NCBI GenBank assembly: GCA_947169235.1
Contig: CAMVOY010000024.1
Coordinates: forward strand, 1 to 35,668
Direction: 5' to 3'
DNA from: an uncultured Lachnospiraceae bacterium
Lineage (GTDB): Bacteria > Bacillota > Clostridia > Lachnospirales > Lachnospiraceae
DNA length: 35,668 nucleotides
Both the position numbers and the translations under genes were made by a program. The notes below the pieces were generated by a model. That model searched no databases, was not told the origin of the DNA, and worked only from the letters and a program-made list of their open reading frames with translations. Position 1 is the first letter of the stretch. Each line of letters starts with the position of its first letter. Shown piece by piece: positions 1,228 through 28,845 of this stretch.

Positions 1228-1350
1228 GAAAAATAGCCTCTTATTTCGTTTTTATCTATCTTGTTTCTTTTTATCTATTTTATTTCTTTTTATCTATTTT
1301 ATTCTATTTATTCATTTATATCAAGTGGGAACAGCCGCCAATTCCAGCAA
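1228..1350. other. AT-rich tract with short tandem repeats, no gene
   Basis: The plus strand carries a pyrimidine/AT-rich run in which a unit like TTTTTATCTATTTTATTTC is repeated about three times between roughly 1245 and 1315. On the minus strand it would be upstream DNA of the dead ATPase gene. Together with 508-1227 it forms a 0.9-kb stretch without an intact gene. Confidence 0.5.
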
Positions 1351-1357
1351 TAAAAGC

Positions 1358-1385
1358 TTGCAAATACGTGGGTTTGTGCTATACT
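1358..1385 (+). promoter_or_regulatory. Promoter of the MIF-like gene
   Basis: A -35 box TTGCAA (1358-1363) and a -10 box TATACT (1380-1385) are 16 bp apart, with a TG extended -10. The predicted start lies about 20 nt before the ribosome binding site. Confidence 0.65.
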
Positions 1386-1413
1386 TAGAAAAAAAGACGA
1401 GGAGGGCAAAAAC

Positions 1414-1755
1414 ATGCCATTTATCGATTCAAAGATTTCAGTGAACGTTTCACAGGAGAAAAAAGACGCTATCAAGGCTAAGTTCGGCCAGGCGATCAGC
1501 GTTCTCGGAAAGGGCGAGAGCTTCCTGATGGTCGGATTCGACGACAACTACGATCTGTATTTCGGCGGAGACAAGGTTGAAAAAGGCGCATATGTCGCTG
1601 TCAGCCTTTTTGGAAAGGCATCACCGGATGCTTACTCCAAGATGAGCGGTGAAATCTGCCGCATCCTTGGCGAGGAACTCGACATCCCGGGTGACAGAGT
1701 CTATGTTACCTACCGCGAAGTCAGCGACTGGGGTTGGAACGGTAGGAACTTCTAG
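1414..1755 (+). CDS. MIF-like phenylpyruvate/tautomerase superfamily protein
   Basis: The 113-residue product has the length and pattern of the macrophage migration inhibitory factor branch of the tautomerase superfamily. Proline follows the initiator methionine; in this family the processed N-terminal Pro is the catalytic base for keto-enol tautomerisation. A lysine-containing segment near residue 32, a central beta strand near residues 38-50 and the C-terminal GWNGRNF, like the GWN..F ending of MIF, support this. An AGGAGGG site precedes the ATG by 7 nt. The family forms homotrimers. The bacterial substrate is unknown, and no neighbour suggests a pathway. It is monocistronic, with its own promoter. 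Confidence 0.85.
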   Translation: MPFIDSKISVNVSQEKKDAIKAKFGQAISVLGKGESFLMVGFDDNYDLYFGGDKVEKGAYVAVSLFGKASPDAYSKMSGEICRILGEELDIPGDRVYVTYREVSDWGWNGRNF

Positions 1756-1760
1756 GATGT

Positions 1761-1838
1761 AAGAGTATAACTAATCCGGGACATACGAGTAGGGAACAGA
1801 AGAGTGCAACTAATTCGGGACATAAGTGTAGGGAACAC
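1761..1838 (+). repeat. Two 39-bp tandem repeats
   Basis: Two successive 39-bp units (1761-1799 and 1800-1838) share AAGAGT, GCAACTAATTCGGGACATA-like and TAGGGAACA blocks with a few substitutions, and a partial third copy (GAGAGTATAAG) follows. They fill the gap between the MIF-like stop codon and the next promoter. No terminator is evident here. Confidence 0.75.
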
Positions 1839-1855
1839 GAGAGTATAAGAAATTC

Positions 1856-1884
1856 TTGACCTGTTAGTAATAATTTGCTATAAT
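1856..1884 (+). promoter_or_regulatory. Promoter of the secreted Big2-like gene
   Basis: TTGACC (1856-1861) and TATAAT (1879-1884) are 17 bp apart, with an extended TG. This near-consensus promoter predicts strong expression. A short dyad, GCGGCATATGCCGC, lies in the leader near 1904-1917. Confidence 0.85.
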
Positions 1885-1949
1885 GTTCTTTGTATCTGAT
1901 CCCGCGGCATATGCCGCAACTAACCATTTAGTACCAGGAGGTAAGAAAA

Positions 1950-2576
1950 ATGACAATCAAATTGAATGTGTCAAAGAAGACTGCAGCTATCGCTATGTCT
2001 TTAGTTCTTGCAGCAGGCACAGTCGCAGGTGGCGTTTACATTTCTAACGTATCTGCAGCTACAAAGCCGTCAGTTGCTAAGTCTGTAAATGTCGCTCCGG
2101 GTAAGACTACAGGTCTGGCTATCAAGAGCAAAGGTTTCAAGGTTAAGAGCGTAACAGTTAAGTCAAGCAATACAAGTGTTGCTATGGCTCAGGCTACAAA
2201 GAAGAGCGTAACTATCGGCGGTATCGCTGAGGGTAATGCTACTATCACTGTTAGCATCAAGGCTAAGAAGGGTAAGAAGACAAAGACTTATACATCTAAG
2301 GTTGCCGTTTCGGTTAAGCCGGAGAACGAGCCTACAGTAGCTCCGAGCGTAGCGCCGACAGCTACAGCTGCTGCAACAGCATCCGCTAGTGCTTCAGCAT
2401 CTGCATCACCGAGCGCATCTGCAAGTGCATCACCGAGTGCTTCAGCAAGCGCATCAGCATCACCGAGTGCATCTGCATCTGCTTCACCGAGCGCATCAGC
2501 ATCAACAACACCGGCTTCTGAGTCAGCTTCAGCATCACCGAGCGCTTCAGCAAGTTCAACACCTACGAATGGTTGA
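1950..2576 (+). CDS. Secreted Big2-like protein with Ser/Ala/Pro low-complexity tail
   Basis: The 208-residue product starts with a signal peptide: lysines at 4-10, a hydrophobic stretch at about 12-33, and likely cleavage after SAA. Residues 38-125 resemble a bacterial Ig-like (Big2) fold, with the V..G.....V....SV pattern, SSNTSVA and an IGGIAEGNATITVS stretch. Residues 126-208 are almost only Ala, Ser, Pro and Thr, in AS/SASP repeats at protein and DNA level. There is no LPXTG signal or transmembrane anchor. It may be released, or held in the wall through the flexible tail, which could be glycosylated. The ribosome binding site AGGAGG lies 7 nt before the ATG. Function unknown; secretion is the firm part. 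Confidence 0.8.
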   Translation: MTIKLNVSKKTAAIAMSLVLAAGTVAGGVYISNVSAATKPSVAKSVNVAPGKTTGLAIKSKGFKVKSVTVKSSNTSVAMAQATKKSVTIGGIAEGNATITVSIKAKKGKKTKTYTSKVAVSVKPENEPTVAPSVAPTATAAATASASASASASPSASASASPSASASASASPSASASASPSASASTTPASESASASPSASASSTPTNG

Positions 2577-2678
2577 TAGGTAGGTTGATAGTTGAATCTT
2601 AGATAAGTGTATATAAGATAATAACTAAAAAGCGTTAAATAGGATGGAAACAATCGATCCGGATCAGTTACAGATTGT

Positions 2679-2712
2679 AAAAGGGTTCTCATGATGAGAA
2701 CCCTTTTTTTTG
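2679..2712 (+). terminator. Rho-independent terminator, probably bidirectional
   Basis: A perfect stem, AAAAGGGTTCTCAT paired with ATGAGAACCCTTTT, is followed by a run of T on the plus strand. On the minus strand the stem also ends in TTTT, so it can serve both the secreted-protein gene and the convergent AI-2E family gene. Confidence 0.9.
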
Positions 2713-2802
2713 TATGATGGGCATATCTGAACCCTTCTGAGTCGGAGGCGACAGTGTCCATAGTATTGGAGTCATCGTTCGTTGGTGTCCGTAGTGTTGG
2801 CG

Positions 2803-4167
2803 TCACCGGCCGTCGGTATCACTGTCGTCGCTGGCATCAGCACCGGCAGCATCAGCACCGGCAGCGCCAGCACCGGCATCATCTGCGTCCTCATCCTTTT
2901 TGACATCTCCCAGCTTCCTGCGGTTCGTGCGGTCAGGGAGCGCAGGCCCTTTGGAGCCCGAGTACTCGTACGCCTCGGTCGGCAGGCCCTTTTTTCGCAG
3001 ATGCTTGTCCATGTAGCGCGTCACGATGCGGTAGATGATCGCGAACACGGGCACACCGATAAGCATGCCGACGACTCCGAACATCCCGCCGAAGAATATG
3101 ATCGAAAACAGTATCCAAAAGCTTCCGAGACCTATCGAGTTTCCGAGGATCTGCGGGCTGATGACGTTCGCGTCGATCTGCATGAACACGACGATAAAGA
3201 TCACAAATATCAACGCCGAGATCGGGTCGTGCACGAGCAGCAGCAGCGCACTCGGGATGATCCCGATGAACTGCCCGAAGAACGGGATCAGGTTGCAGAC
3301 CGCGAGGAGCACGGCGATAAGCGTCGAATACGGCATCCCCTTGTCGAGAAAAAGTCCCATCGTCCACAGGAATAAAAATGTCACGATACCGACAAACAGC
3401 GAATCTAAAAGCTTTCCGGTGATGAACTCACCGAATACGTGATGCGTTTCGGAGCACATCTTGTTGAAGCGCAGGTACCAGCGCTCAGGAAGCACAGCCG
3501 CGAGGAACTTGCGTGTCTGCAGAAGGAAGTTCTCCTTGTCGCAGAGCAGGTAGATCGAGATGATCAGTCCTACAAAGAAATCCACGACCACGCCCGCTAC
3601 GCTTACCAGGCTTGAGAGGACGCTGCCGAGACTTGAAAGCAGGGTCGGCAGTGAATTTTTGAGCATGTCGACGATGGCGACGGATGCGTTGTCAATGTTG
3701 TGCATGAAGTCTTTCTGAGTCTGTTCGCTGAATAACGCCGGATGGTCGGCCATGAACGAGTTGATCGCTGACTTCGCATCGTTAAAGTAACTCGGGATCT
3801 GCTCTGAGAGCGATTTCGCCGTGTTGATGAGCTGCGGGATGACGAGCACCGAGAGCCCTGTCAAAAACCCGAGTAACAGTAATATCGAAAGAGTGACTGA
3901 TATGCCCCTCGCTATATTCTTGTGTTGTCCCTTAAAAAGTTTCAAAAATACCTTCGTCTCGAAAAATCTCACGATCGGGTTTATCAGATAAGCGATGATA
4001 AGTCCGATCCATACGGGCGTCAGCGCGCTGACAACCTTTCCGAGAAATGTCAGTATCACCGAAAACTTCGGGAAGATGCTGCTCACGATGAGAGCGAGCG
4101 ACAGACTTATAAAAATAGTAAGTCCGATGTAAAAGTATTTTTTCTGTTCTTCTTTTAGTCGTTTCAT
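2803..4167 (-). CDS. AI-2E family membrane transporter
   Basis: The 454-residue product has about eight hydrophobic segments in the AI-2E/PerM (UPF0118) arrangement: two near residues 12-65, one near 90-115, a cluster at about 180-210, and several between 255 and 370, with the conserved late segment around PFFGQFIGIIPSALLLL. Family members export small solutes; autoinducer-2 transport is shown for only some, and others act as Na+/H+ antiporters. The C-terminus ends in a 30-residue tail of Asp, Ala and Gly, encoded by short tandem repeats at 2834-2880. It starts at ATG 4167 behind a GAGGATC site, 23 nt after nth, so the two are likely co-transcribed. Substrate unknown. Confidence 0.88.
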   Translation of the reverse strand: MKRLKEEQKKYFYIGLTIFISLSLALIVSSIFPKFSVILTFLGKVVSALTPVWIGLIIAYLINPIVRFFETKVFLKLFKGQHKNIARGISVTLSILLLLGFLTGLSVLVIPQLINTAKSLSEQIPSYFNDAKSAINSFMADHPALFSEQTQKDFMHNIDNASVAIVDMLKNSLPTLLSSLGSVLSSLVSVAGVVVDFFVGLIISIYLLCDKENFLLQTRKFLAAVLPERWYLRFNKMCSETHHVFGEFITGKLLDSLFVGIVTFLFLWTMGLFLDKGMPYSTLIAVLLAVCNLIPFFGQFIGIIPSALLLLVHDPISALIFVIFIVVFMQIDANVISPQILGNSIGLGSFWILFSIIFFGGMFGVVGMLIGVPVFAIIYRIVTRYMDKHLRKKGLPTEAYEYSGSKGPALPDRTNRRKLGDVKKDEDADDAGAGAAGADAAGADASDDSDTDGR

Positions 4168-18299: not shown

Positions 18300-19268
18300 A
18301 TGGAGTTTTCACTATGCATGATCGTAAAAAACGAGGAGAAGACGTTGGCGCGCTGCCTCGACTCTCTCCACGGCCTGATGGACGAGATCATCATCGTCGA
18401 CACCGGCTCGACCGATGCGACCAAGGAGATCGCAGCCCGCTACACGGACAAGGTCTATGACTTCACATGGGTCGACGATTTCTCCGCCGCGAGGAACTTC
18501 GCCTTCTCAAAAGCGACCAAAGATTACATCTATTCGGCCGACGCCGATGAGGTGCTAGACGCCGAAAATTGGGCAAAGTTTGATATCTTAAAACGCAACT
18601 TAATAAATGACATAGAAATCGTCCAGTTCATCTACGGAAACCAGCTCGACAATGGTACTGCATATAACTTTGATGAGGAGTTGAGACCGAAACTCTTTAA
18701 GAGACTCCGCACTTTCACATGGATCGAGCCTGTGCATGAGCAGATGAGACTGGATCCCGTGGTCTATGATTCGGATATCGTGATCACGCATAAGCCCGAA
18801 GGACTGCACAGTGGCAGAGATTATAGGATTTTCCTGAAGGAGTTTAACGAAGGCAGGCGCCTGTCAAAACATCTGCATCATATGTACGCCATGGAGCTTT
18901 TTATCTCGGGATCCGATGATGATTTTCTCGCAGCCGAGCCTGCCTTTGTGCAGAGCGCATGTGATGAGACGAGGAGCCTTGACGAGGTGAAGGAAGCTGT
19001 GTGCGTAGTCTGCCATGCAGCGAGACTTCGCGGTGATGCGGACACCATGCTGAAGATGAGCTTAAAGGATCTGCTCACGGAGGGCTCTGCTGAGATGTGT
19101 TGTGAACTCGGTCGTTGGTTCTATGACAGGGGTGACTACCGGGAGGCCGCGATGTGGTTCTACAACGCCATGAATGAGACCGAGCCGATACTCACGATTC
19201 AGGCCGCAAAGGAATGGCCCGAAAAGGGTTACAGGATGTGCGCGGAGAAGCTCGGACTGGAAGTGTAG
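18300..19268 (+). CDS. Family 2 glycosyltransferase with helical C-terminal part
   Basis: The 322-residue product begins with a GT-A fold: SLCMIVKNEE near residues 4-13, IIIVDTGSTD (nucleotide-sugar binding) near 30-39, and the DAD metal motif in YSADADEVLD near 80. A WIEPVHEQM stretch near 140 is typical of the SPBC2/YtcC type of family 2 enzymes. Residues 195-322 look helical and may hold one or two TPR-like units (WFYDRGDYREAAMWFYNAM). There is no membrane segment, so it should be cytosolic or peripheral. AAGGAGG precedes ATG 18300. Acceptor unknown; it lies alone between two repeat regions. Confidence 0.88.
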   Translation: MEFSLCMIVKNEEKTLARCLDSLHGLMDEIIIVDTGSTDATKEIAARYTDKVYDFTWVDDFSAARNFAFSKATKDYIYSADADEVLDAENWAKFDILKRNLINDIEIVQFIYGNQLDNGTAYNFDEELRPKLFKRLRTFTWIEPVHEQMRLDPVVYDSDIVITHKPEGLHSGRDYRIFLKEFNEGRRLSKHLHHMYAMELFISGSDDDFLAAEPAFVQSACDETRSLDEVKEAVCVVCHAARLRGDADTMLKMSLKDLLTEGSAEMCCELGRWFYDRGDYREAAMWFYNAMNETEPILTIQAAKEWPEKGYRMCAEKLGLEV

Positions 19269-20170: not shown

Positions 20171-20200
20171 TTGACATCAAGGGGCGTATTAATATATAAT
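20171..20200 (+). promoter_or_regulatory. Promoter of purA
   Basis: A consensus TTGACA (20171-20176) and TATAAT (20195-20200) with an 18-bp spacer. The leader is only about 35 nt long, so there is no room for a purine riboswitch. Confidence 0.85.
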
Positions 20201-20242: not shown

Positions 20243-21520
20243 ATGATAACTGCAGTAGTAGGCGCCAACTGGGGCGATGAAGGAAAAGGAAAGATCACAG
20301 ACATGCTGGGAGAGGAGTCCGATATCATCGTTCGCTTCCAGGGCGGAGCGAATGCCGGACATACGATCGTGAACGACTACGGAAAGTTCGCGCTTCATAT
20401 CCTGCCTTCCGGCGTTTTTTATGACCATACGACGAGCATCATCGGGAACGGTGTCGCACTGAACATCCCCGAGCTCGTAAAGGAGATACGTGAGATCACG
20501 GATAAAGGCGTGCCGATGCCGAAGATAAAGGTGTCTGACCGTGCGCAGATCGTGATGCCGTATCACATCCTGTTCGACGAATACGAGGAGGAGCGCCTGG
20601 CCGGCAAGTCGTTCGGATCGACGAAGTCGGGTATCGCGCCTTTTTACTCAGATAAATACGCAAAGATCGGTATCCAGGTCAGCGAGCTTTTCGATGAGGC
20701 TGAGCTCAGAGAGAAGCTTGAGGGTATCGCCGTAAAGAAAAATATCCTGCTCGAGCATCTGTATCACAAGCCTGCACTTGATGTGGACGAGCTGATGCAG
20801 ACGATGAGCGAATACAAAAAGATGATCGAGCCGTATGTATGCGACGTCGGAACATTTTTGTTCAATGCTAGAAAAGAAGGAAAGAGGATCCTTTTGGAGG
20901 GACAGCTCGGAAGTCTCAAGGATCCCGATCACGGTATCTACCCGATGGTCACTTCTTCATCGACGCTTGCAGGGTACGGAGCTATCGGGGCCGGCGTACC
21001 GCCGTACGAGATCGGAAGGATCGTGACGGTCGTGAAGGCTTATTCATCGGCGGTCGGAGCGGGCGAGTTCGTCAGCGAGATCGAGGATGAGGCTGAGGCA
21101 GATGAGCTCAGACGCCGCGGCGGAGACGGCGGTGAGTATGGTGCCACGACGGGACGCCCGAGACGTATGGGCTGGTTTGATGCGGTGGCGAGCCGTTACG
21201 GATGTAGGGTGCAGGGTGCGACGGAGGTCGCTCTCACGGTGCTCGACGTGCTCGGATATCTCGACGAGCTGCCGATATGCGTGGGTTATGAGATCGACGG
21301 AAAGGTGACACGCGACTTCCCGACGACGAATCTTCTGAAAAAAGCCAAGCCGGTTTACGAGACTCTGCCGGGTTGGAAATGCGATATAGACGGAATAAGG
21401 GAATATGACAAGCTCCCAGAGAATTGCAGAAAGTATATAGAGTTCATAGAAAAGGAGCTCGAGGTCCCGATCAAGATGGTTTCAAACGGTCCGGGACGCC
21501 ACGATATCATCTACAGATAA
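20243..21520 (+). CDS. purA: Adenylosuccinate synthase
   Basis: Joins IMP and aspartate with GTP to give adenylosuccinate in AMP synthesis. The P-loop signature GANWGDEGKGK holds catalytic Asp12, and NAGHT holds His40. The GTP-binding end includes TTGRPRRMGWFD and the conserved closing segment near residue 415. At 425 residues it is a full-length bacterial enzyme. The segment EGQLGSLKDPDHGIYP differs from the EGAQG..LDIDHGTYP form of proteobacterial enzymes. CAGGAGG lies before ATG 20243. The next gene begins 77 bp later without a clear promoter or terminator between them. Confidence 0.97.
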   Translation: MITAVVGANWGDEGKGKITDMLGEESDIIVRFQGGANAGHTIVNDYGKFALHILPSGVFYDHTTSIIGNGVALNIPELVKEIREITDKGVPMPKIKVSDRAQIVMPYHILFDEYEEERLAGKSFGSTKSGIAPFYSDKYAKIGIQVSELFDEAELREKLEGIAVKKNILLEHLYHKPALDVDELMQTMSEYKKMIEPYVCDVGTFLFNARKEGKRILLEGQLGSLKDPDHGIYPMVTSSSTLAGYGAIGAGVPPYEIGRIVTVVKAYSSAVGAGEFVSEIEDEAEADELRRRGGDGGEYGATTGRPRRMGWFDAVASRYGCRVQGATEVALTVLDVLGYLDELPICVGYEIDGKVTRDFPTTNLLKKAKPVYETLPGWKCDIDGIREYDKLPENCRKYIEFIEKELEVPIKMVSNGPGRHDIIYR

Positions 21521-21597: not shown

Positions 21598-24500
21598 ATG
21601 AGGGAAAAGATATACTTCCTGGCAAAAGGAAACTTCACATACGAGGCACCGAAGCTCATCGTAGAGCCTGAAAAGGTTGAGATCGAGGTTGTGGCCGGAA
21701 TGAAGGCCGAGGCTACCTTTACCATCGAGAACTCAAGGCATACCAAGATGAAGGGCTTTGGATTCTGCGATGTGCAGGAGATCACATTTTTGCCGATATT
21801 CGAGGGTGAGCAGAGTGAGCTTACCGTCGAGGTCGATGCTACGGAGCTGATCGCCGGGACCAATCTGACCGGTGATCTGTTACTTGTGACCGACTGCGGA
21901 GAGCTGAGAGTCCCGTACGATATCAAAGTCACTGCGCCCGTTCTCACGGATGATGAGGGCAGGAAGGTCAGTGACTATTTCACTTTGATCAAGCGTACGG
22001 AAAAAGATCCGAAGGCGGGTCTTAAGCTTTTCAAGGACCCGAGGTTCAAGGAGACATTTTTGTATCGTGACCCCGAAGGCAGACTGGTCTATGATCGCCT
22101 GATGAAGGGGAATACCGGGCTCTCCGGCATGGAAGAGTTTCTGGTAGCTTTTGAAAAAAAAGAGCCGGTCCGCTTTATGCTCGAGCATGCCGATGACATC
22201 GAGTACGAGCTTTCCGGAAACGATATAGAAGATGTGATAATGGTGAACTTAAACGCCTGGGGCTCCACGGCGATAAGGGTTGACGTGACCGGAGATTTCA
22301 TCGAGGTCGAGAAGCGGATCCTCTGGACGGATGAGTTCGTCGACATGAGGGGAAGACTTGACTATCGTATAGTCGCAGGCAGGGTTCCTGCGGGTAATCA
22401 TGTCGGCAAGATCCGATTCACCTCACCTTACGAGAGCTACGAGGTTGAGATAATCGTGCACAGTCCCGTGGGTGCCAAGGAGAGAAAGATCACCCGTGCG
22501 AAGCAGGCTGTGGAGGTACTGTTACTCAGATCCCTTTTGGCTTACGAAGAGGGAAGGGTGACCAAGGACGAGTTCAAGATATTTTTGCAGAAGCACAGAT
22601 CCGTGCTCGAGAAACTGGTGTTCAAGTTCAGCGTCCCGCTCAAAGGTTACATGGCGTGGATCCTCTCGAGTGAGGCGTCGAAGCTTGAGTTCTACCGGGA
22701 CACCGAAAGAGACGATGCACCGAGTTTCGGCGATGACCAGTCGGTGGTCGAGAACTATCTTTTGACAAAATATGTGAAGTGCCTGTATTCGGAGCGTGAT
22801 GAGGATCTCGCGGAGCTGTCGAACCTCGTGACGACATATGCCGAGAACGGGTATCTCAGCGAGGTGCTGCTCGTGATCGGGCTGCGCTGCGACAGAGAGA
22901 ATTATTCCTCGGCACAGAACCGTGCGGAGAGGATCAGGAAATTTTTGATAAAGGGCTCAGCCAGTCCCATCATGTATTCCGAGCTCATCAGATGCTACAG
23001 GAAGGAGCCTGAGCTTCTCACCGAGCTTGATGCGATGACCTTAAAGGCGCTGCTTTACGGCCTCCGTCAGGGGCTGATCACGGAGCAGATGGCCGACGTG
23101 ATCACGGTGCTCTCGGAGGGAAGAGGTCTGCCGCTCATCGACAGCGGGCAGGGCTACGGCTATACGAGAGAAAACGACCCCCTGGGCAAGGGCACGGGGG
23201 CTTTGCTCATGCACGTTCTTTTCGGGATCTACGAACTCTACCCGAACGATGATACCCTGAAAAATATCTGTTCACTCCTGATACGCTATGAGAAGCGCGA
23301 CAGGAGATTTTTCCCGTGGTACGAAAAGGGTGTTTCAAAAATGCTCAGGATCACGGATCTTTTTGAGTACTATGTGTACACCATAGATCCGGCGTCATAC
23401 GATCCTCTGCCGACGAACATCCTGTCATACTTCCAGTATGAGAACCACTTAAATGACGCGAGAAAGGCGTATCTGTACGCCAATATAGTTAAAAACAGAC
23501 AGACAAACCCTGTGGCTTACTCGACCTATGAGGAGCAGATCAGGGAATTCGTCAAAGACCAGATCGAGAAGGAGAGAATCTCCACGGATCTGGGATATCT
23601 GTATACGGAAATGCTGACGGCTGAGGATGTGATGGGTGTCACCGAGGATGGCGACAGGGAGGAAGCCGAGGCTATGGCGTCTACTCTGACGACGCATCTG
23701 CCGCATATCATGTTCAGACACCTCCTCACATGCATGACGCCTGACATAGAGAGTGTGACGTTGGTATACCTGAATACGACCGATGAGCGCACCTATCCGC
23801 TCGATCGCGGCAAGGCGCTCATGGATATCTATACGCCGGAGTTCAGACTGTTTTTCTCGGACAAAGAGGGAAATCAGTATGTCGACAGCATCGACTATAC
23901 GCTTGAATATTTTTATGACGGAGGCGAGTTCGCGCCACTCTGCTACCCGGCGATCGATATGCCTGAGGACGAGGATGATCTCGCCGGTGCATCGGATGAG
24001 GATCCGGAACCGGGCGAGCAGCTGGTCATGGGCGGGCTTTCGGTGGACGAGCCTGAGGAGGAACCGCCGGCGCCGAAGACAGCGTTAGAGATCCTTGAGG
24101 AGATAAGAAGGACAGGCAAGACTCCGAAGATGGAGGAGCAGGAGCAGAAGGAAAAAGAGGCCAGGAGAAAGGCCGTGGAGATGTACGAGCTCTACCCGAT
24201 CGATGTGCCTGACAGTCTGATATTCCACCTGGCTGCGCGCATCGAGAAGAAACCGCGACTCGACGCTACTGAGGCCGATGTGCTGTTCCACGCCCTGGCG
24301 ACGGAGAAGCTCAGGGATATGTTCCACGGGCGGATATTCTTACGAGTCTATGACTATATCAGAGAACAGGTCAGGGAAAAGGACAAAAACAATTACCTTC
24401 GCCTGCTGATGAAATATCTGAATCCGAATACGATAAAGAGAAACCGTATCGGTGAGGTCGCGAGCGACTGCATCCGCTGCGGCGAGATGGAGAAGGCAGC

Positions 24501-25560
24501 CCAGATGCTCAAGAGATACGGCAGGAACGGCTGCAAGGACGATGAGATGGCCAAGCTCGTTGTCGAGCGCATCAGACAGGTCGAGTACGAGTTCGACGAC
24601 TGCCTCGTAAAATGGGCGTACGCGCTCTATGAAAAGGGTCACCACGAGCGTCCGATACTGAATTATCTGCTCCAGTACTACATGGGCGAGACGGACACGC
24701 TTATCTCTCTGTACAGGGCATCCATGCCGAAAAAGGTCACATCGGGCACGGGCTCCTCGCAGGTCGAGAGTGTCGAGGGTTATATCAAAAATAACCCGGA
24801 GTTCTACGAGAGCGTCAGGGAGAGGCTTTTAGGCCAGGTGCTCTTTGCCTGCAGGAATACTGAGGATACTGAGGACATATTCCTTGACTACTATGAGGAC
24901 GGCGAGAACAGGATGCTCGTAAAGGCGTATCTGTCACAGGTTGCTTATGAGTATGTGGTCGGACGTATCGAGCTGACTGATGCTATTTTTGAAAAAATCT
25001 ACCAGCAGGCGATGTATGAGAAGGAGCCCGTGATGGTGCTCGCGGCGCTGAAAAAGCTGGTAACGAAAGAAGAATACGATGAGAACGAGACAGGCTTTAT
25101 CATGAGCAGTCTCGAGGATATGGCAGGACGCGGCTGCATACTCCCGTTCATGAAGGATTTCGCACCGCGCATCACAGTGCCGTTCGAGATCAGGACGCCG
25201 GTACTCGTGCAGTATTACAGCGGGACGCCGGACGGGGTATTTTTGTTCGTCAAGAACAAAAACAGCGAGTACGAGTCCAAGCCCATGGAAAAAGTGTTTG
25301 ACGGAATATTTATCTCGTCGATACTTCTTTTTGCGGGCGAGGAGACCGTCGGATACATCTACGAAGAGGAGACGGGCAAGCGTTCAAAACAGTTCGAGCT
25401 CCGCAAAAAGGAGATCAAGAGCGGCGGCGCGAGTCTGTTTGAGCAGGTAAATGCGATGCTCGAGGCCAGACGCGACGGAGACGAAGAGGAGTACAAACAT
25501 CTGAGTGAGACTTTCGTTGAGGAGCTGGAAGTATCGAAGGCGTTGTTTACGATCTTATAA
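21598..25560 (+). CDS. Giant beta-sandwich and solenoid protein (resembles DUF5717 family)
   Basis: The 1320-residue product has no signal peptide and no membrane segment, so it is cytosolic. Residues 1-115 and about 190-300 show two beta-sandwich-like domains with alternating strands (VEIEVVAGMKAEATF; GRVPAGNHVGKIRF). Residues about 305-780 and 865-1190 are mostly helical, with repeating 30-40-residue amphipathic pairs suggesting a TPR/HEAT-like solenoid. An acidic, proline-containing linker (about 788-865) separates the two halves. The last 120 residues return to beta structure. No catalytic motif was found. I recall Lachnospiraceae families DUF5717/DUF5717_N with this size and context, but could not search. 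It is the first gene of a tight operon, 18 bp before the Hsp70-like gene, and may be its scaffold partner. Confidence 0.75.
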   Translation: MREKIYFLAKGNFTYEAPKLIVEPEKVEIEVVAGMKAEATFTIENSRHTKMKGFGFCDVQEITFLPIFEGEQSELTVEVDATELIAGTNLTGDLLLVTDCGELRVPYDIKVTAPVLTDDEGRKVSDYFTLIKRTEKDPKAGLKLFKDPRFKETFLYRDPEGRLVYDRLMKGNTGLSGMEEFLVAFEKKEPVRFMLEHADDIEYELSGNDIEDVIMVNLNAWGSTAIRVDVTGDFIEVEKRILWTDEFVDMRGRLDYRIVAGRVPAGNHVGKIRFTSPYESYEVEIIVHSPVGAKERKITRAKQAVEVLLLRSLLAYEEGRVTKDEFKIFLQKHRSVLEKLVFKFSVPLKGYMAWILSSEASKLEFYRDTERDDAPSFGDDQSVVENYLLTKYVKCLYSERDEDLAELSNLVTTYAENGYLSEVLLVIGLRCDRENYSSAQNRAERIRKFLIKGSASPIMYSELIRCYRKEPELLTELDAMTLKALLYGLRQGLITEQMADVITVLSEGRGLPLIDSGQGYGYTRENDPLGKGTGALLMHVLFGIYELYPNDDTLKNICSLLIRYEKRDRRFFPWYEKGVSKMLRITDLFEYYVYTIDPASYDPLPTNILSYFQYENHLNDARKAYLYANIVKNRQTNPVAYSTYEEQIREFVKDQIEKERISTDLGYLYTEMLTAEDVMGVTEDGDREEAEAMASTLTTHLPHIMFRHLLTCMTPDIESVTLVYLNTTDERTYPLDRGKALMDIYTPEFRLFFSDKEGNQYVDSIDYTLEYFYDGGEFAPLCYPAIDMPEDEDDLAGASDEDPEPGEQLVMGGLSVDEPEEEPPAPKTALEILEEIRRTGKTPKMEEQEQKEKEARRKAVEMYELYPIDVPDSLIFHLAARIEKKPRLDATEADVLFHALATEKLRDMFHGRIFLRVYDYIREQVREKDKNNYLRLLMKYLNPNTIKRNRIGEVASDCIRCGEMEKAAQMLKRYGRNGCKDDEMAKLVVERIRQVEYEFDDCLVKWAYALYEKGHHERPILNYLLQYYMGETDTLISLYRASMPKKVTSGTGSSQVESVEGYIKNNPEFYESVRERLLGQVLFACRNTEDTEDIFLDYYEDGENRMLVKAYLSQVAYEYVVGRIELTDAIFEKIYQQAMYEKEPVMVLAALKKLVTKEEYDENETGFIMSSLEDMAGRGCILPFMKDFAPRITVPFEIRTPVLVQYYSGTPDGVFLFVKNKNSEYESKPMEKVFDGIFISSILLFAGEETVGYIYEEETGKRSKQFELRKKEIKSGGASLFEQVNAMLEARRDGDEEEYKHLSETFVEELEVSKALFTIL

Positions 25561-25578
25561 CCATTCGGAGGAACATAA

Positions 25579-26859
25579 ATGAGTGATGACAGAACATTGA
25601 TAGTCGGCATGGATCTGTGCGACGAGACTACGCAGCTGGCGGTCTATGATCGTGAGCTGATGGAGCCTGTCCTTATAGGTCAGTCCGAGGATAATCCGGA
25701 CGCGCTTATAGAAACGGCGGTCAACTTCGCCGAGCGCGAGTCGATCACGGGACTCCTTGAGAAGGCGAGGTCCGGTGATGACGTTATGAACGACGGAAAA
25801 ATGGTCGGGATCGAGAGAGTGCTCGCGTACTTTTTCAGAAAGACCCTGGCGATGACCAGAGTTCGTTACCCCGGAGAAAAGATAAAAATGCTCACGATCT
25901 CGGTTCCGTCGATGGACAAGGATTTTGTGGACAGGCTGTATGAGGCGCTGTCTTTGATCGGACTCGAGAACGACAGAGTGAGGATCATAGATCACAAAAG
26001 AAGCTACATGTACTACGTGCTCTATCAGAAAAAGGAGCTGTGGACCAATGACGTGGGGCTTTTTGACTATGACGGCGAGAGACTGTTATACGAACAGTTA
26101 AAAATAGACCGTTCGCACCTGCCGGCTTTGGTGGGCGTTACGGAGAAGGATTTTACGGAGGCCTTTAAGGTGGCTGACAGGCCTGAGAAACTCCCTGAGA
26201 AGCTCCCTGATTCGATCGAGTTTATCGACGAGATCGACGAGAACTCGGAAGAGATCAAGGCTGCGACCCCGAAAGGGACTATTTTTGAGAATATAGTAAA
26301 GACCGCGCTGAAGAATCAGTTCGTATCATCACTGTTTATGACGGGTGAGGGATTCGAGACAAAGTGGGCTGATGAGGTGTTCCCAAGGCTGGCGGTCGGC
26401 AGACGTCTGTTCCGCGGCAGGAACCTCTATGTCAGTGGGGCGACATATGCATCGAAGGAGTTCGGTGAGAAAAAGAGACTCGAGGATTACGTTGTTTTTG
26501 CGCCTGATATGGTGCCGGCACGTCTGTCGATGGATGTGTACGAGAACGGAAAGCAGAACGAGGTCGTGCTCGCACCGGCCGGTTATCCGTGGTTCGAGGT
26601 GGATACCGAGGTGGATCTGATCCCTGACGGGGATACGGAGATCGTGGTGAATGCAAGGCCTGTGTTTGAGGGAGAGGTACACCAGTACAAGCTTGACATC
26701 TCGCCTATCCTCGCGAAGAACAACCGTATGACCAGGATCGGGTTGCGCGTGAGGTTCGAGGATTCGAAAACAGCGATATTTACCATAAGGGATAAGGGCT
26801 TCGGCGATACGATGCCCGGAAGCAATCGTGTTTGGGAGGAGACTATAGTATGTTCATAA
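25579..26859 (+). CDS. Hsp70/actin-like protein with degenerate nucleotide motifs (resembles DUF5716)
   Basis: The 426-residue product follows the Hsp70/actin order. Strand IVGMDLCDETTQLAVYD (8-24) stands where Hsp70 has GIDLGTTNS; MLTISVPSMD (about 110) where it has ITVPAYF; then IIDHKRSYMYYVL (about 137); NDVGLFDYDGERL (about 155) where it has YDLGGGT; and LFMTGEGFE plus GRRLFRGRNLYVSGA (about 250-290) where it has VGG and a GAA helix. The first aspartate is kept, but the glycine-rich phosphate loops are replaced, so hydrolysis may be lost or altered. Residues 300-426 are beta-rich, placed like an Hsp70 substrate domain. The fold assignment is from motif spacing only. A CGGAGG site precedes the ATG, and the stop overlaps the next gene by 10 bp. 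Confidence 0.7.
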   Translation: MSDDRTLIVGMDLCDETTQLAVYDRELMEPVLIGQSEDNPDALIETAVNFAERESITGLLEKARSGDDVMNDGKMVGIERVLAYFFRKTLAMTRVRYPGEKIKMLTISVPSMDKDFVDRLYEALSLIGLENDRVRIIDHKRSYMYYVLYQKKELWTNDVGLFDYDGERLLYEQLKIDRSHLPALVGVTEKDFTEAFKVADRPEKLPEKLPDSIEFIDEIDENSEEIKAATPKGTIFENIVKTALKNQFVSSLFMTGEGFETKWADEVFPRLAVGRRLFRGRNLYVSGATYASKEFGEKKRLEDYVVFAPDMVPARLSMDVYENGKQNEVVLAPAGYPWFEVDTEVDLIPDGDTEIVVNARPVFEGEVHQYKLDISPILAKNNRMTRIGLRVRFEDSKTAIFTIRDKGFGDTMPGSNRVWEETIVCS

Positions 26860-27623
26860 GATGCTATGGAAAGGTGGCGACAGAGCCCTATACCATGCCG
26901 TATACCGGAGCGAGGGTGTACTCTTTGGAGGAGCTGTGCTACTACATCGGAAATAACATATATACGATCACCGAGGACTTTTTTACGAAGTCTTTGGTTG
27001 AGTGGCTTGACAAAGAGGCGGATCAGAAGGTCCTCGCCAACAAGCTCGACACGATGATAACCAACAAAAATAAGCTGAAGGATCTGGTCGTGACCATCCT
27101 ATGTGCCTGCGACTACTACAAGGAGTTCGAGATCCGCGAGCTGATGCGTGTTATCGACGATATCGTGAATCTCCCGCTCCATGAGAAGAGCAAGATCCGC
27201 GCCGACAACTATATGCGTGCCGGACTCTATGCAAAGAGTGCCGCAGCCTACAGAAAGCTGCTCACGGGTGCCTATGCGGTGAACTTTACGCCGGAGGCTT
27301 ACGGAGATATCCTTCACAATCTCGGTATAGCGCAGTTCTACACGGCTTCTTTTGAGGCTGCCGAGAGGGATTTCAAGGAGGCTTACGCCAGGAATCACAG
27401 GGCGGAGTCGCTCCATCATTATCTCTATCTGCTTTTAATGAGAAACAGAAATGAAGAGTTCGAGCGCGAGTGTATAGAGCATGGCATGAACAATGCTCAG
27501 CTCGAGGCTATCAGAAACAGATTTAACGAGGAAAAGATGAAGGTTCAGAAACGGACCATCGATGATGAAGAGATAGAAAGATTTAAAGAGGATTTGAGAA
27601 AGGCGGCCGGTAGTGCGATTTAA
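26850..27623 (+). CDS. TPR-like protein of the Hsp70-like operon, function unknown
   Basis: The 257-residue cytosolic product is almost wholly helical. Residues about 1-110 form an N-terminal domain of unknown type, beginning MFIRCYGKV. Residues about 115-200 contain two or three TPR-like units (ADNYMRAGLYAKSAAAYRKL; ILHNLGIAQFYTASFEAAERDFKEAY is the clearest region). The C-terminal 45 residues are highly charged. ATG 26850 was chosen because GGGAGGAG lies just upstream and the gene then overlaps the previous stop by 10 bp; an upstream in-frame ATG lacks a site. The overlap with both neighbours argues for coupled translation and a shared complex. Confidence 0.75.
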   Translation: MFIRCYGKVATEPYTMPYTGARVYSLEELCYYIGNNIYTITEDFFTKSLVEWLDKEADQKVLANKLDTMITNKNKLKDLVVTILCACDYYKEFEIRELMRVIDDIVNLPLHEKSKIRADNYMRAGLYAKSAAAYRKLLTGAYAVNFTPEAYGDILHNLGIAQFYTASFEAAERDFKEAYARNHRAESLHHYLYLLLMRNRNEEFERECIEHGMNNAQLEAIRNRFNEEKMKVQKRTIDDEEIERFKEDLRKAAGSAI

Positions 27624-28845
27624 ACTGTTCGGATTCGGCCGGAAAAAGAAGAAGGATGAACAGATCCCTGAAGAGGAGTACGGAAGCCTCAGAGAGGAGA
27701 GAAGTGCCGAATCAGCCGAAGTAGAGAAGATCATCAAGAATCACCCCTACTTCGAAAAAGAAAATGTAGATTTGAAAAATGCGCCTGCTCGCATCGCTTA
27801 CCTCGAGCGTCTCAGAGACACTATCATGGAGGGAAAGCATCAGTGTGAGGAGGTCAAGTTTGAATACGGCCGCGTTACATCCTACCTTAAGGACATCCAG
27901 CTCATCGATCAGGCTCAGGAAGAGGACAGAAAAGAGATATATGACTGCGCAAAGAGGATAGTCGAGCTGACCGAGATGCGCAAGGCCATACGCCACAAAA
28001 GATATCAGATCTCGGACCCCCAGAGAAAGGCTATGGACCGCTTCGAGGAGGACGTGCCTCACGACGTGGAAAAGCTTTTGGAGTTCGAAGATCTGCAGGT
28101 AAAGATAAGGGGAGATCTCAGAAAACTGAGCGGAGAGAAGGCTTTTCTCGTTTCCGAAAAGAAAGAGATCAACCGCAGACAGTCGTCGCTGAGGCGTATA
28201 AGCAAGGTGTTGGCAGTGATCCTGTCTTTGGCAGCGATAGCATTGGGGTGCCTTTTGGCTTACTGGCAGGTCGATATCACGGTGCCTTTTGTCGCTACGG
28301 CATCGTTTGCATTTCTCATCGCCGCTATCATCATGTGGGAGGCGCGCAAAAACCGCATGGAGATGGCTGTTACCGAGAAAAAGGAGAACCGCGCGGTATT
28401 TTTGACTAACCGTGTAAAGATAAAGTACGTTAATAATGTAAGAGCTCTGGAGTACCTGACCGGCAAATACGCGGTCAGAAACGCTACAGAGCTTGATTTC
28501 GTTTATTCGCAGTATCGTGATGCGAAACGCGAGTGGGCCCGTCAGCGTGAGGGTACGATTCAGATCGAGGAGAACCATGAGATACTGATCCATGCGCTTA
28601 AGAGGATCGGTGTCAGGGACCGCGAGATATGGTTTACACAGGCGAAGGCTCTCATCGATCCGTCTGAGATGGTCGAGGTCAGACATGAGTTAAACCAGAG
28701 GCGTCAGAAGCTGAGGGAACAGCTGGATTACAATACCGGAGTGATGACGGAGTGTCTGAATGAGATGGATAAGATCAGGCAGAAAAAGCCCGAGTACGAG
28801 GCGGATGTTGAGAGGATCCTCGCGCAGGTCGGGGAACTGAAGTAG
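27613..28845 (+). CDS. Coiled-coil membrane protein of the Hsp70-like operon, function unknown
   Basis: The 410-residue product starts at GTG 27613, overlapping the previous stop by 11 bp, with AAGGCGG upstream. A basic N-terminus (FGRKKKK) leads into charged coiled-coil helices (about 35-190). Two adjacent transmembrane helices follow (197-217 and 224-243), joined by a short loop, and then a second charged helical region (about 245-410). With two spans, both coiled-coil parts should face the cytoplasm and could anchor the soluble operon partners to the membrane. No known family was recognised. Confidence 0.72.
   Translation: MRFKLFGFGRKKKKDEQIPEEEYGSLREERSAESAEVEKIIKNHPYFEKENVDLKNAPARIAYLERLRDTIMEGKHQCEEVKFEYGRVTSYLKDIQLIDQAQEEDRKEIYDCAKRIVELTEMRKAIRHKRYQISDPQRKAMDRFEEDVPHDVEKLLEFEDLQVKIRGDLRKLSGEKAFLVSEKKEINRRQSSLRRISKVLAVILSLAAIALGCLLAYWQVDITVPFVATASFAFLIAAIIMWEARKNRMEMAVTEKKENRAVFLTNRVKIKYVNNVRALEYLTGKYAVRNATELDFVYSQYRDAKREWARQREGTIQIEENHEILIHALKRIGVRDREIWFTQAKALIDPSEMVEVRHELNQRRQKLREQLDYNTGVMTECLNEMDKIRQKKPEYEADVERILAQVGELK

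Follow-up and report, generated by a model that had tools for sequence, protein, structure and literature searches.

Two described systems stand close to the locus reported here. One is Ssz1 of the yeast ribosome-associated complex (RAC), an Hsp70 without the lid formed by the alpha part of the substrate-binding domain (SBD-alpha); its nucleotide-binding domain (NBD) binds ATP and cannot hydrolyse it, and Ssz1 still binds chains via SBD-beta within a stable complex (PMC7083937). The other comes from GTPase-centred conflict systems: PMC7159879 describes GAP1-N2 neighbourhoods in which HSP70 and GrpE occur with an FNIII protein that is fused to either DnaJ or TPR, a theme given for about 14% of these neighbourhoods. 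This HSP70-GrpE-FNIII/TPR theme is the nearest described idea to an operon that we analysed in contig CAMVOY010000024.1 of an uncultured Lachnospiraceae bacterium, a stretch of 35,668 nucleotides hereafter called the window. Positions 21598-28845 hold four consecutive + strand open reading frames (ORFs), A, B, C and D, and in other families of the order Lachnospirales the corresponding operon has about nine genes, among them those for the Hsp70s here named X, B1, B2 and B3. Three things are new. B is identified as a pseudo-Hsp70; a larger operon of several Hsp70s with GrpE and vWA domains is described from elsewhere in the order; and ATPase residues, an NBD segment and the GrpE-domain gene are found to be missing together in the window's family.

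Comparison with the known systems shows both kinship and distance. B resembles Ssz1 in lacking a lid, and with its degraded ATP site it may likewise be non-hydrolysing; this is an analogy, and we claim no orthology. Unlike Ssz1, B has a shortened NBD segment between the phosphate-2 and adenosine motifs and a giant Ig/solenoid partner in its operon, and no J-domain protein was recognised among the operon proteins scanned. With DnaK-GrpE there is a homologous Hsp70 fold, and the larger operon has canonical Hsp70s together with a GrpE-domain protein, but the operon's Hsp70 types are lidless and the window locus keeps only a catalytically degraded Hsp70 and no GrpE-domain gene. Like the GAP1-N2 systems, the larger operon places an HSP70, a GrpE and a beta-sandwich/TPR protein in one neighbourhood; unlike them, it yielded no recognised GTPase among the proteins scanned, which were a part of the neighbours, and the window genes occur in almost all sampled family genomes. 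Pfam holds A and B members as PF18980, PF18984 and PF18983, entries named as families of unknown function, to which we add the Hsp70 origin and the larger operon. The first reading of the window, made from sequence only, knew of no described function for the operon, and our literature search, in which preprints lay outside coverage and subscription papers were thinly covered, found none either; the sole find for DUF5716 or DUF5717 names DUF5716 in an unrelated motif scan.

Gene B, an Hsp70 relative with a degraded ATP site

By profile, predicted fold and tree, B (25579..26859, + strand, 426 aa; DUF5716) is an Hsp70 relative consisting of an NBD and a lidless SBD-beta. The window protein lies above the curated cut-off of Pfam DUF5716_C (PF18980), and profile comparison establishes Hsp70 homology by matching DnaK (E 7.5e-8); Pfam applied to window B alone gave no HSP70 match, and two of 43 members match HSP70, weakly (best 0.026). 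The structure model recovers an ASKHA-type NBD plus an SBD-beta fold, the pairing by which the Hsp70 superfamily is recognised, and Foldseek searches with this model returned Ssz1 (6sr6) among the best matches. Residues 1-303 (+ strand) make up the NBD-like part, with its degenerate ATP site and shortened phosphate-2-to-adenosine segment, and residues 304-426 (26488..26856, + strand) the lidless SBD-beta-like domain. Phylogeny agrees. The tree had 81 of the 131 Hsp70 rows, after truncated rows and one near-copy were removed and group sizes capped, and included no actin or MreB row. In it, all 22 DUF5716 rows join the B1 of family f4 in a single group (100/100), and a split with the same 100/100 support sets DUF5716 and B1 apart from X, B2, B3 and DnaK.

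The ATP site has largely decayed. Five residues found throughout the scored rows of X, B2, B3 and DnaK are lost from the DUF5716 proteins, namely T11 (kept in 0/43), K70 (0/41), E171 (0/43), T199 (1/43) and G342 (0/43). Because these catalytic residues are gone, B appears unlikely to be an ATP-driven chaperone. In B1, K70 and T199 are likewise absent (0/17 each) and E171 is found in 3/17. The stretch between the phosphate-2 and adenosine motifs follows a different pattern. Its median is 142-179 residues in DnaK, X, B2, B3 and B1 (B1 148, range 132-151) and 70 in DUF5716 (range 58-92), window B being the longest at 92; relative to B1 the shortfall is ~55 residues in window B and ~78 at the median of the family. 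Thus it is the shortened NBD segment, and not the lost ATP site, that coincides with the absence of the GrpE-domain gene.

Loss of the lid is shared more widely. The residues that follow SBD-beta number 11-23 at the median in X, B1, B2 and DUF5716 (16 in the last), as against 152 in DnaK, while the ~215 residues found there in B3 are its vWA part. These short or vWA tails indicate that X, B1, B2, B3 and DUF5716 all lack SBD-alpha.

A larger operon in other families of the order

We selected 20 loci from other families of the order by their DUF5717_N match, so that A is present by choice; downstream pieces were available for 18, and several loci are cut by contig ends, which bears on all counts that follow. 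A is split into A-N (~400 aa) and A-C (~900 aa) in 17 loci and is a single ORF in three, fusions being counted from fetched ORFs only; open frames of 1332-1345 aa had pointed to further fused A genes, but at L117 the ORFs are two. The operon further comprises X, an Hsp70 of ~559 aa (18/20 loci); Y, a GrpE-domain protein of ~280-645 aa (17/20); B1, a fuller relative of B at ~457-542 aa (16/20); B2, an Hsp70 of ~546 aa (13/20); B3, ~690-720 aa (15/20), of which the one scanned is an Hsp70 plus vWA; C, ~387 aa with a longer TPR array (15/20); and D (5/20). Each of the three Y proteins scanned has a C-terminal GrpE domain (E 3e-13, 5.4e-12 and 2.2e-9). B2 was seen at two more loci, L116 and L133, as HSP70 frames (G018:C131:11019-12479 and G674:C1:961224-962468). 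In Pfam, the L118 B1 hits DUF5716_C at E 1.5e-26 as well as HSP70 at E 1.4e-17.

Compared with this operon, the Lachnospiraceae locus has neither the canonical Hsp70s nor a GrpE-domain gene, and its A-N and A-C are one protein. An HSP70 match at the locus was found in none of ten family genomes tested, whereas all ten order genomes have several there; the same ten family genomes carry DnaK and MreB-sized frames elsewhere. Further unlinked Hsp70s, which the tree does not classify, occur in G463 and G566, with a weak match in G555. The N-terminal part of the GrpE-domain protein was found in none of 291 genomes in a class search that included 13 of the order, ten of them of the family, and ran without a positive control.

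DUF5716_C itself reaches across the order, matching 31 of 32 A-bearing order genomes (29 over the cut-off), including 19 of 20 genomes of family f5. Some of these matches lie on the contig of A and others elsewhere; some are B2-like, and such a match is the sole one in G735.

At L115 (f4; 1343-3384 and 863-1231), the B3 Hsp70-vWA gene appears as two overlapping frames, and C is likewise broken up, a short frame preceding one of 195 aa; these are real splits or assembly errors. At L122 (f5), three opposite-strand ORFs lie between A-N and A-C.

Genes A, C and D

Gene A (21598..25560, + strand, 1320 aa) is a giant putative scaffold with matches above curated Pfam cut-offs to PF18984 (DUF5717_N, E 2.4e-170) and PF18983 (DUF5717, E 6.4e-53). 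A structure model of residues 1-850 of 1320, of moderate confidence (pLDDT 63.8), together with its fold matches, supports a beta-sandwich plus solenoid protein, as had been surmised from the translation. The model has a first sandwich at residues 20-112 (21655..21933, + strand), a second, Ig/PapD-like one at residues 193-288 (22174..22461, + strand) and a helix series forming an alpha-solenoid at residues 293-704 (22474..23709, + strand); fold matches liken the second sandwich to PapD-type chaperones. Profile searches against solved structures gave just one chance match for the A family and no convincing match for A-N of the other families, and the profile of their A-C matched TPR/PPR chains in PDB in its later part.

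Gene C (26850..27623, + strand) has a conserved N-terminal domain followed by a short TPR array. Window C alone stays below Pfam cut-offs (TPR_2, E 0.0022), the C of L136 matches TPR_2 at E 5e-26, and a profile of 42 C sequences matches TPR chains with a best E of 1.6e-31, in line with its earlier assignment as a TPR protein. Three of 46 family loci (L089, L095 and L097) fuse B and C, which suggests contact between the two. Gene D (27613..28845, + strand, 410 aa) is a coiled-coil protein in which a simple hydropathy count shows two hydrophobic spans, again as first read; against solved structures it gave weak coiled-coil matches only. An NCBIfam scan returned no match for A, B or C and sub-cut-off matches only for D.

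The spacing of the genes is as the sequence-only reading had described, with 18 bp between A and B and overlaps of 10 and 11 bp at the next two junctions. GGAGG stands ahead of B in the 18-bp spacing after A. For C, the ORF lister takes TTG 26832, but ATG 26850 is best taken as the start; it yields 257 aa and the 10-bp overlap with B, and is preceded by the Shine-Dalgarno-like GGGAGGAG. D overlaps C by 11 bp and starts with GTG. Comparison of the window with three relatives gave ratios of nonsynonymous to synonymous substitution rates (dN/dS) of 0.032-0.116 in the 10 gene pairs, out of 11, for which dS was computable, a mark of purifying selection, and on this basis all four look like working protein genes.

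Distribution and neighbourhood

A and B are nearly universal in the sampled family and nearly always single-copy. DUF5716_C (B) was found in 145 of 150 family genomes (123 of 126 good ones) and DUF5717_N (A) in 147 of 150 (124 of 126). G515, G545 and G563 have A and lack B, and G437, a small genome that is 67% complete, has B with no DUF5717_N found. Named relatives of the window include Lachnospiraceae bacterium P6B14 (97% identity) and rumen Eubacterium metagenome-assembled genomes. Beyond the order, neither family was found above cut-off in the phylum and class samples: DUF5716_C occurred in five of 398 phylum genomes, all family members, in a sample listing just one other order genome, and DUF5717_N in ten of 245 class genomes, nine of the family plus one weak match below cut-off. 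Within the order (n=196), DUF5717_N occurred in 94 genomes (93 over cut-off), of which 22 belong to the family and 72 to other families. The operon had been called special to Lachnospiraceae, which holds for the four-gene form only, since a larger matching operon exists in other families.

Gene order was surveyed at 46 family loci, comprising the window, five named relatives and 40 loci, mostly on long contigs, chosen by DUF5716_C match, so that B is present by choice while A, C and D were not selected for. The arrangement is A-B-C-D in 22, A-B-C in 20, A plus fused B-C in three and B alone in one, from an incomplete small genome. The expected co-occurrence of all four genes thus extends to A-B-C, whose order holds in 45 of 46 loci, but to D in only 22. 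A further 35 short loci, also chosen by B and including 16 from genomes outside the 46, all show A-B-C on the same strand and in order. Where D was absent from the locus, a genome-wide search recovered it in 0 of 24 genomes as against 8 of 8 controls, so D has been lost or changed beyond recognition there. A divergent aminotransferase lies upstream in 13/46 family and 9/20 order loci, and valS lies downstream in 13/46 family loci and scores strongly in 4/18 order downstream pieces; these shared flanks suggest one inherited locus, though most loci show none or one of them.

Two oddities concern B. At L093 (G437) only B was found, perhaps through decay in a small genome, or through incompleteness. 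G006, a 4.6 Mb genome of the same genus (L019, L020), holds a second divergent B-like gene at C20:57696-58592, a 395-aa frame with 28-33% identity pieces, which is a paralogue or the product of a mixed bin.

A proposed reduced, nucleotide-independent machine and its alternatives

The interpretation toward which we lean, with some reserve, is that the window operon is a nucleotide-independent remnant of a multi-Hsp70 machine, working as a membrane-tethered scaffold of Hsp70 type. The larger operon would be ancestral, and the window's family would have lost the ATP-using Hsp70s and the GrpE-domain protein; that order of events is inferred from the presence of the larger operon in several families rather than from a dated species tree. 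A would serve as scaffold, and B as a constitutively assembled subunit, peptide-binding or structural, comparable to Ssz1 in yeast RAC; that B works in the manner of Ssz1 is proposed by analogy. C would bridge B to A or to a client, and D, where present, would tie the assembly to the membrane. The complex might hold a client or partner transiently, possibly passing a client to housekeeping DnaK. More tentatively, and with rather less than even confidence, we suggest that the order holds an undescribed machine, so far limited to it, of lidless Hsp70s, GrpE-domain, Hsp70-vWA, Ig/solenoid and TPR proteins and a membrane anchor, from which an ATP-free form driven by a pseudo-Hsp70 would have arisen in the dominant gut family and would serve its core cell biology. 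A and B are present in nearly every genome sampled from a family with a central place in gut and rumen biology, which makes them candidates for core functions. The locus would also be a rare before-and-after record of an Hsp70 losing its ATPase site and part of its exchange-factor lobe, in a lineage whose operon no longer has the GrpE-domain gene or the ATP-using sister Hsp70s, and it makes an ATP-independent role of an Hsp70 testable in bacteria, beside the eukaryotic Ssz1.

Several observations pull the other way. D8 is kept in 37/43 and G341 in 42/43 DUF5716 proteins, so ATP binding is possible, and the K70 and E171 columns depend on the alignment of very divergent sequences. B1 lacks K70 and T199 while a GrpE-domain gene adjoins it, which implies that decay of the ATP site preceded loss of that gene. 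The shortened stretch is one that we presume to carry subdomain IIB, the GrpE dock of DnaK. Confidence in the B model is moderate (pLDDT 66.1, pTM 0.50), its interdomain placement being meaningless, and the tree is rooted at the midpoint, with a program warning that long branches meet. D is missing at about half of the family loci. Two loci of family f5, L122 (G741) and L126 (G735), have no Hsp70 gene beside A, the DUF5716_C matches of both genomes sitting on other contigs. Neither A nor B occurs in the near-complete genomes G446 and G508, which can therefore do without the set.

The retained D8 and G341, with an Hsp70 architecture preserved overall, could instead mean that B has remained a chaperone switched by ATP, its active site unusual and its partners housekeeping DnaJ and GrpE. 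We consider this improbable, given that T11, K70, E171 and T199 are gone in nearly all 43 members, that the presumed exchange-factor segment, 148 residues at the median in B1, measures 70 in DUF5716 (92 in window B), and that there is neither a lid nor a GrpE-domain gene at the family locus. A better-placed though still unlikely alternative is a dedicated chaperone or scaffold for one abundant client, such as an envelope or ribosome-associated assembly, recognised by A through its Ig/PapD-like domains. The PapD-type match of the second sandwich speaks for it, as do the genomes with A and no B, the two f5 loci where A has no adjoining Hsp70, and the membrane proteins, namely D and a coiled-coil gene upstream of A at six order loci. 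Set against these are the generic nature of Ig folds, the fact that most of the 46 family loci show no client gene next to the operon, and the small incomplete genome with B and no A.

The remaining two alternatives fare worse. The combination of HSP70, GrpE and an FNIII protein in GAP1-N2 neighbourhoods (PMC7159879) invites a conflict or defence module of similar logic, which we judge very unlikely. The genes are present, nearly always once, in almost all sampled family genomes, with partly conserved flanks and under strong purifying selection; no GTPase was recognised in the part of the neighbours that was scanned, and PADLOC matched none of the four window proteins. PADLOC gave no match for X, Y or B1 either, and the PDC-M61B matches of B2 and B3, over part of the NBD, are taken as reflecting the shared Hsp70 domain. 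Hsp70 and actin have the ASKHA fold in common, and X, B2 and B3, the canonical paralogues, match Pfam MreB_Mbl, as might be expected if B were a polymerising ATPase of an actin-like filament system anchored to the membrane by D. This has the least to recommend it: B carries a C-terminal SBD-beta, absent from actins, and a degraded ATP site, it groups with Hsp70s in a tree that included no actin row, and the partner genes of the larger operon encode Hsp70s and a GrpE-domain protein. Of the Hsp70/actin-like label given to B by the sequence-only reading, the Hsp70 half stands on profile, fold and tree; the actin or cytoskeletal half is set aside on the SBD-beta, the tree grouping and the fold results. 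Its chaperone-like machine survives in part, the ATP-driven form being unlikely with the catalytic residues gone.

Adjoining genes

Six of the 20 order loci have, immediately upstream of A-N and in the same orientation, a gene of about 375-480 aa whose product has two or three hydrophobic spans (L119:5770-7152, L126:10838-12085, L127:10148-11440, L128:6196-7641, L130:11953-13077 and L132:10831-12150); in L126 a 92-aa ORF intervenes. The four of these genes that were scanned gave only sub-cut-off matches of coiled-coil type in Pfam. The gene may belong to the larger operon as well.

In the window, purA (20243-21520) precedes A-B-C-D by 77 bp. A TTGACA-18-TATAAT site (12/12) stands ahead of purA at 20171-20200; the four genes may be co-transcribed with purA in this genome. 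Farther upstream, at 18300-19268, lies a family 2 glycosyltransferase, whose cluster recurs near the locus in four of the 46 family loci.

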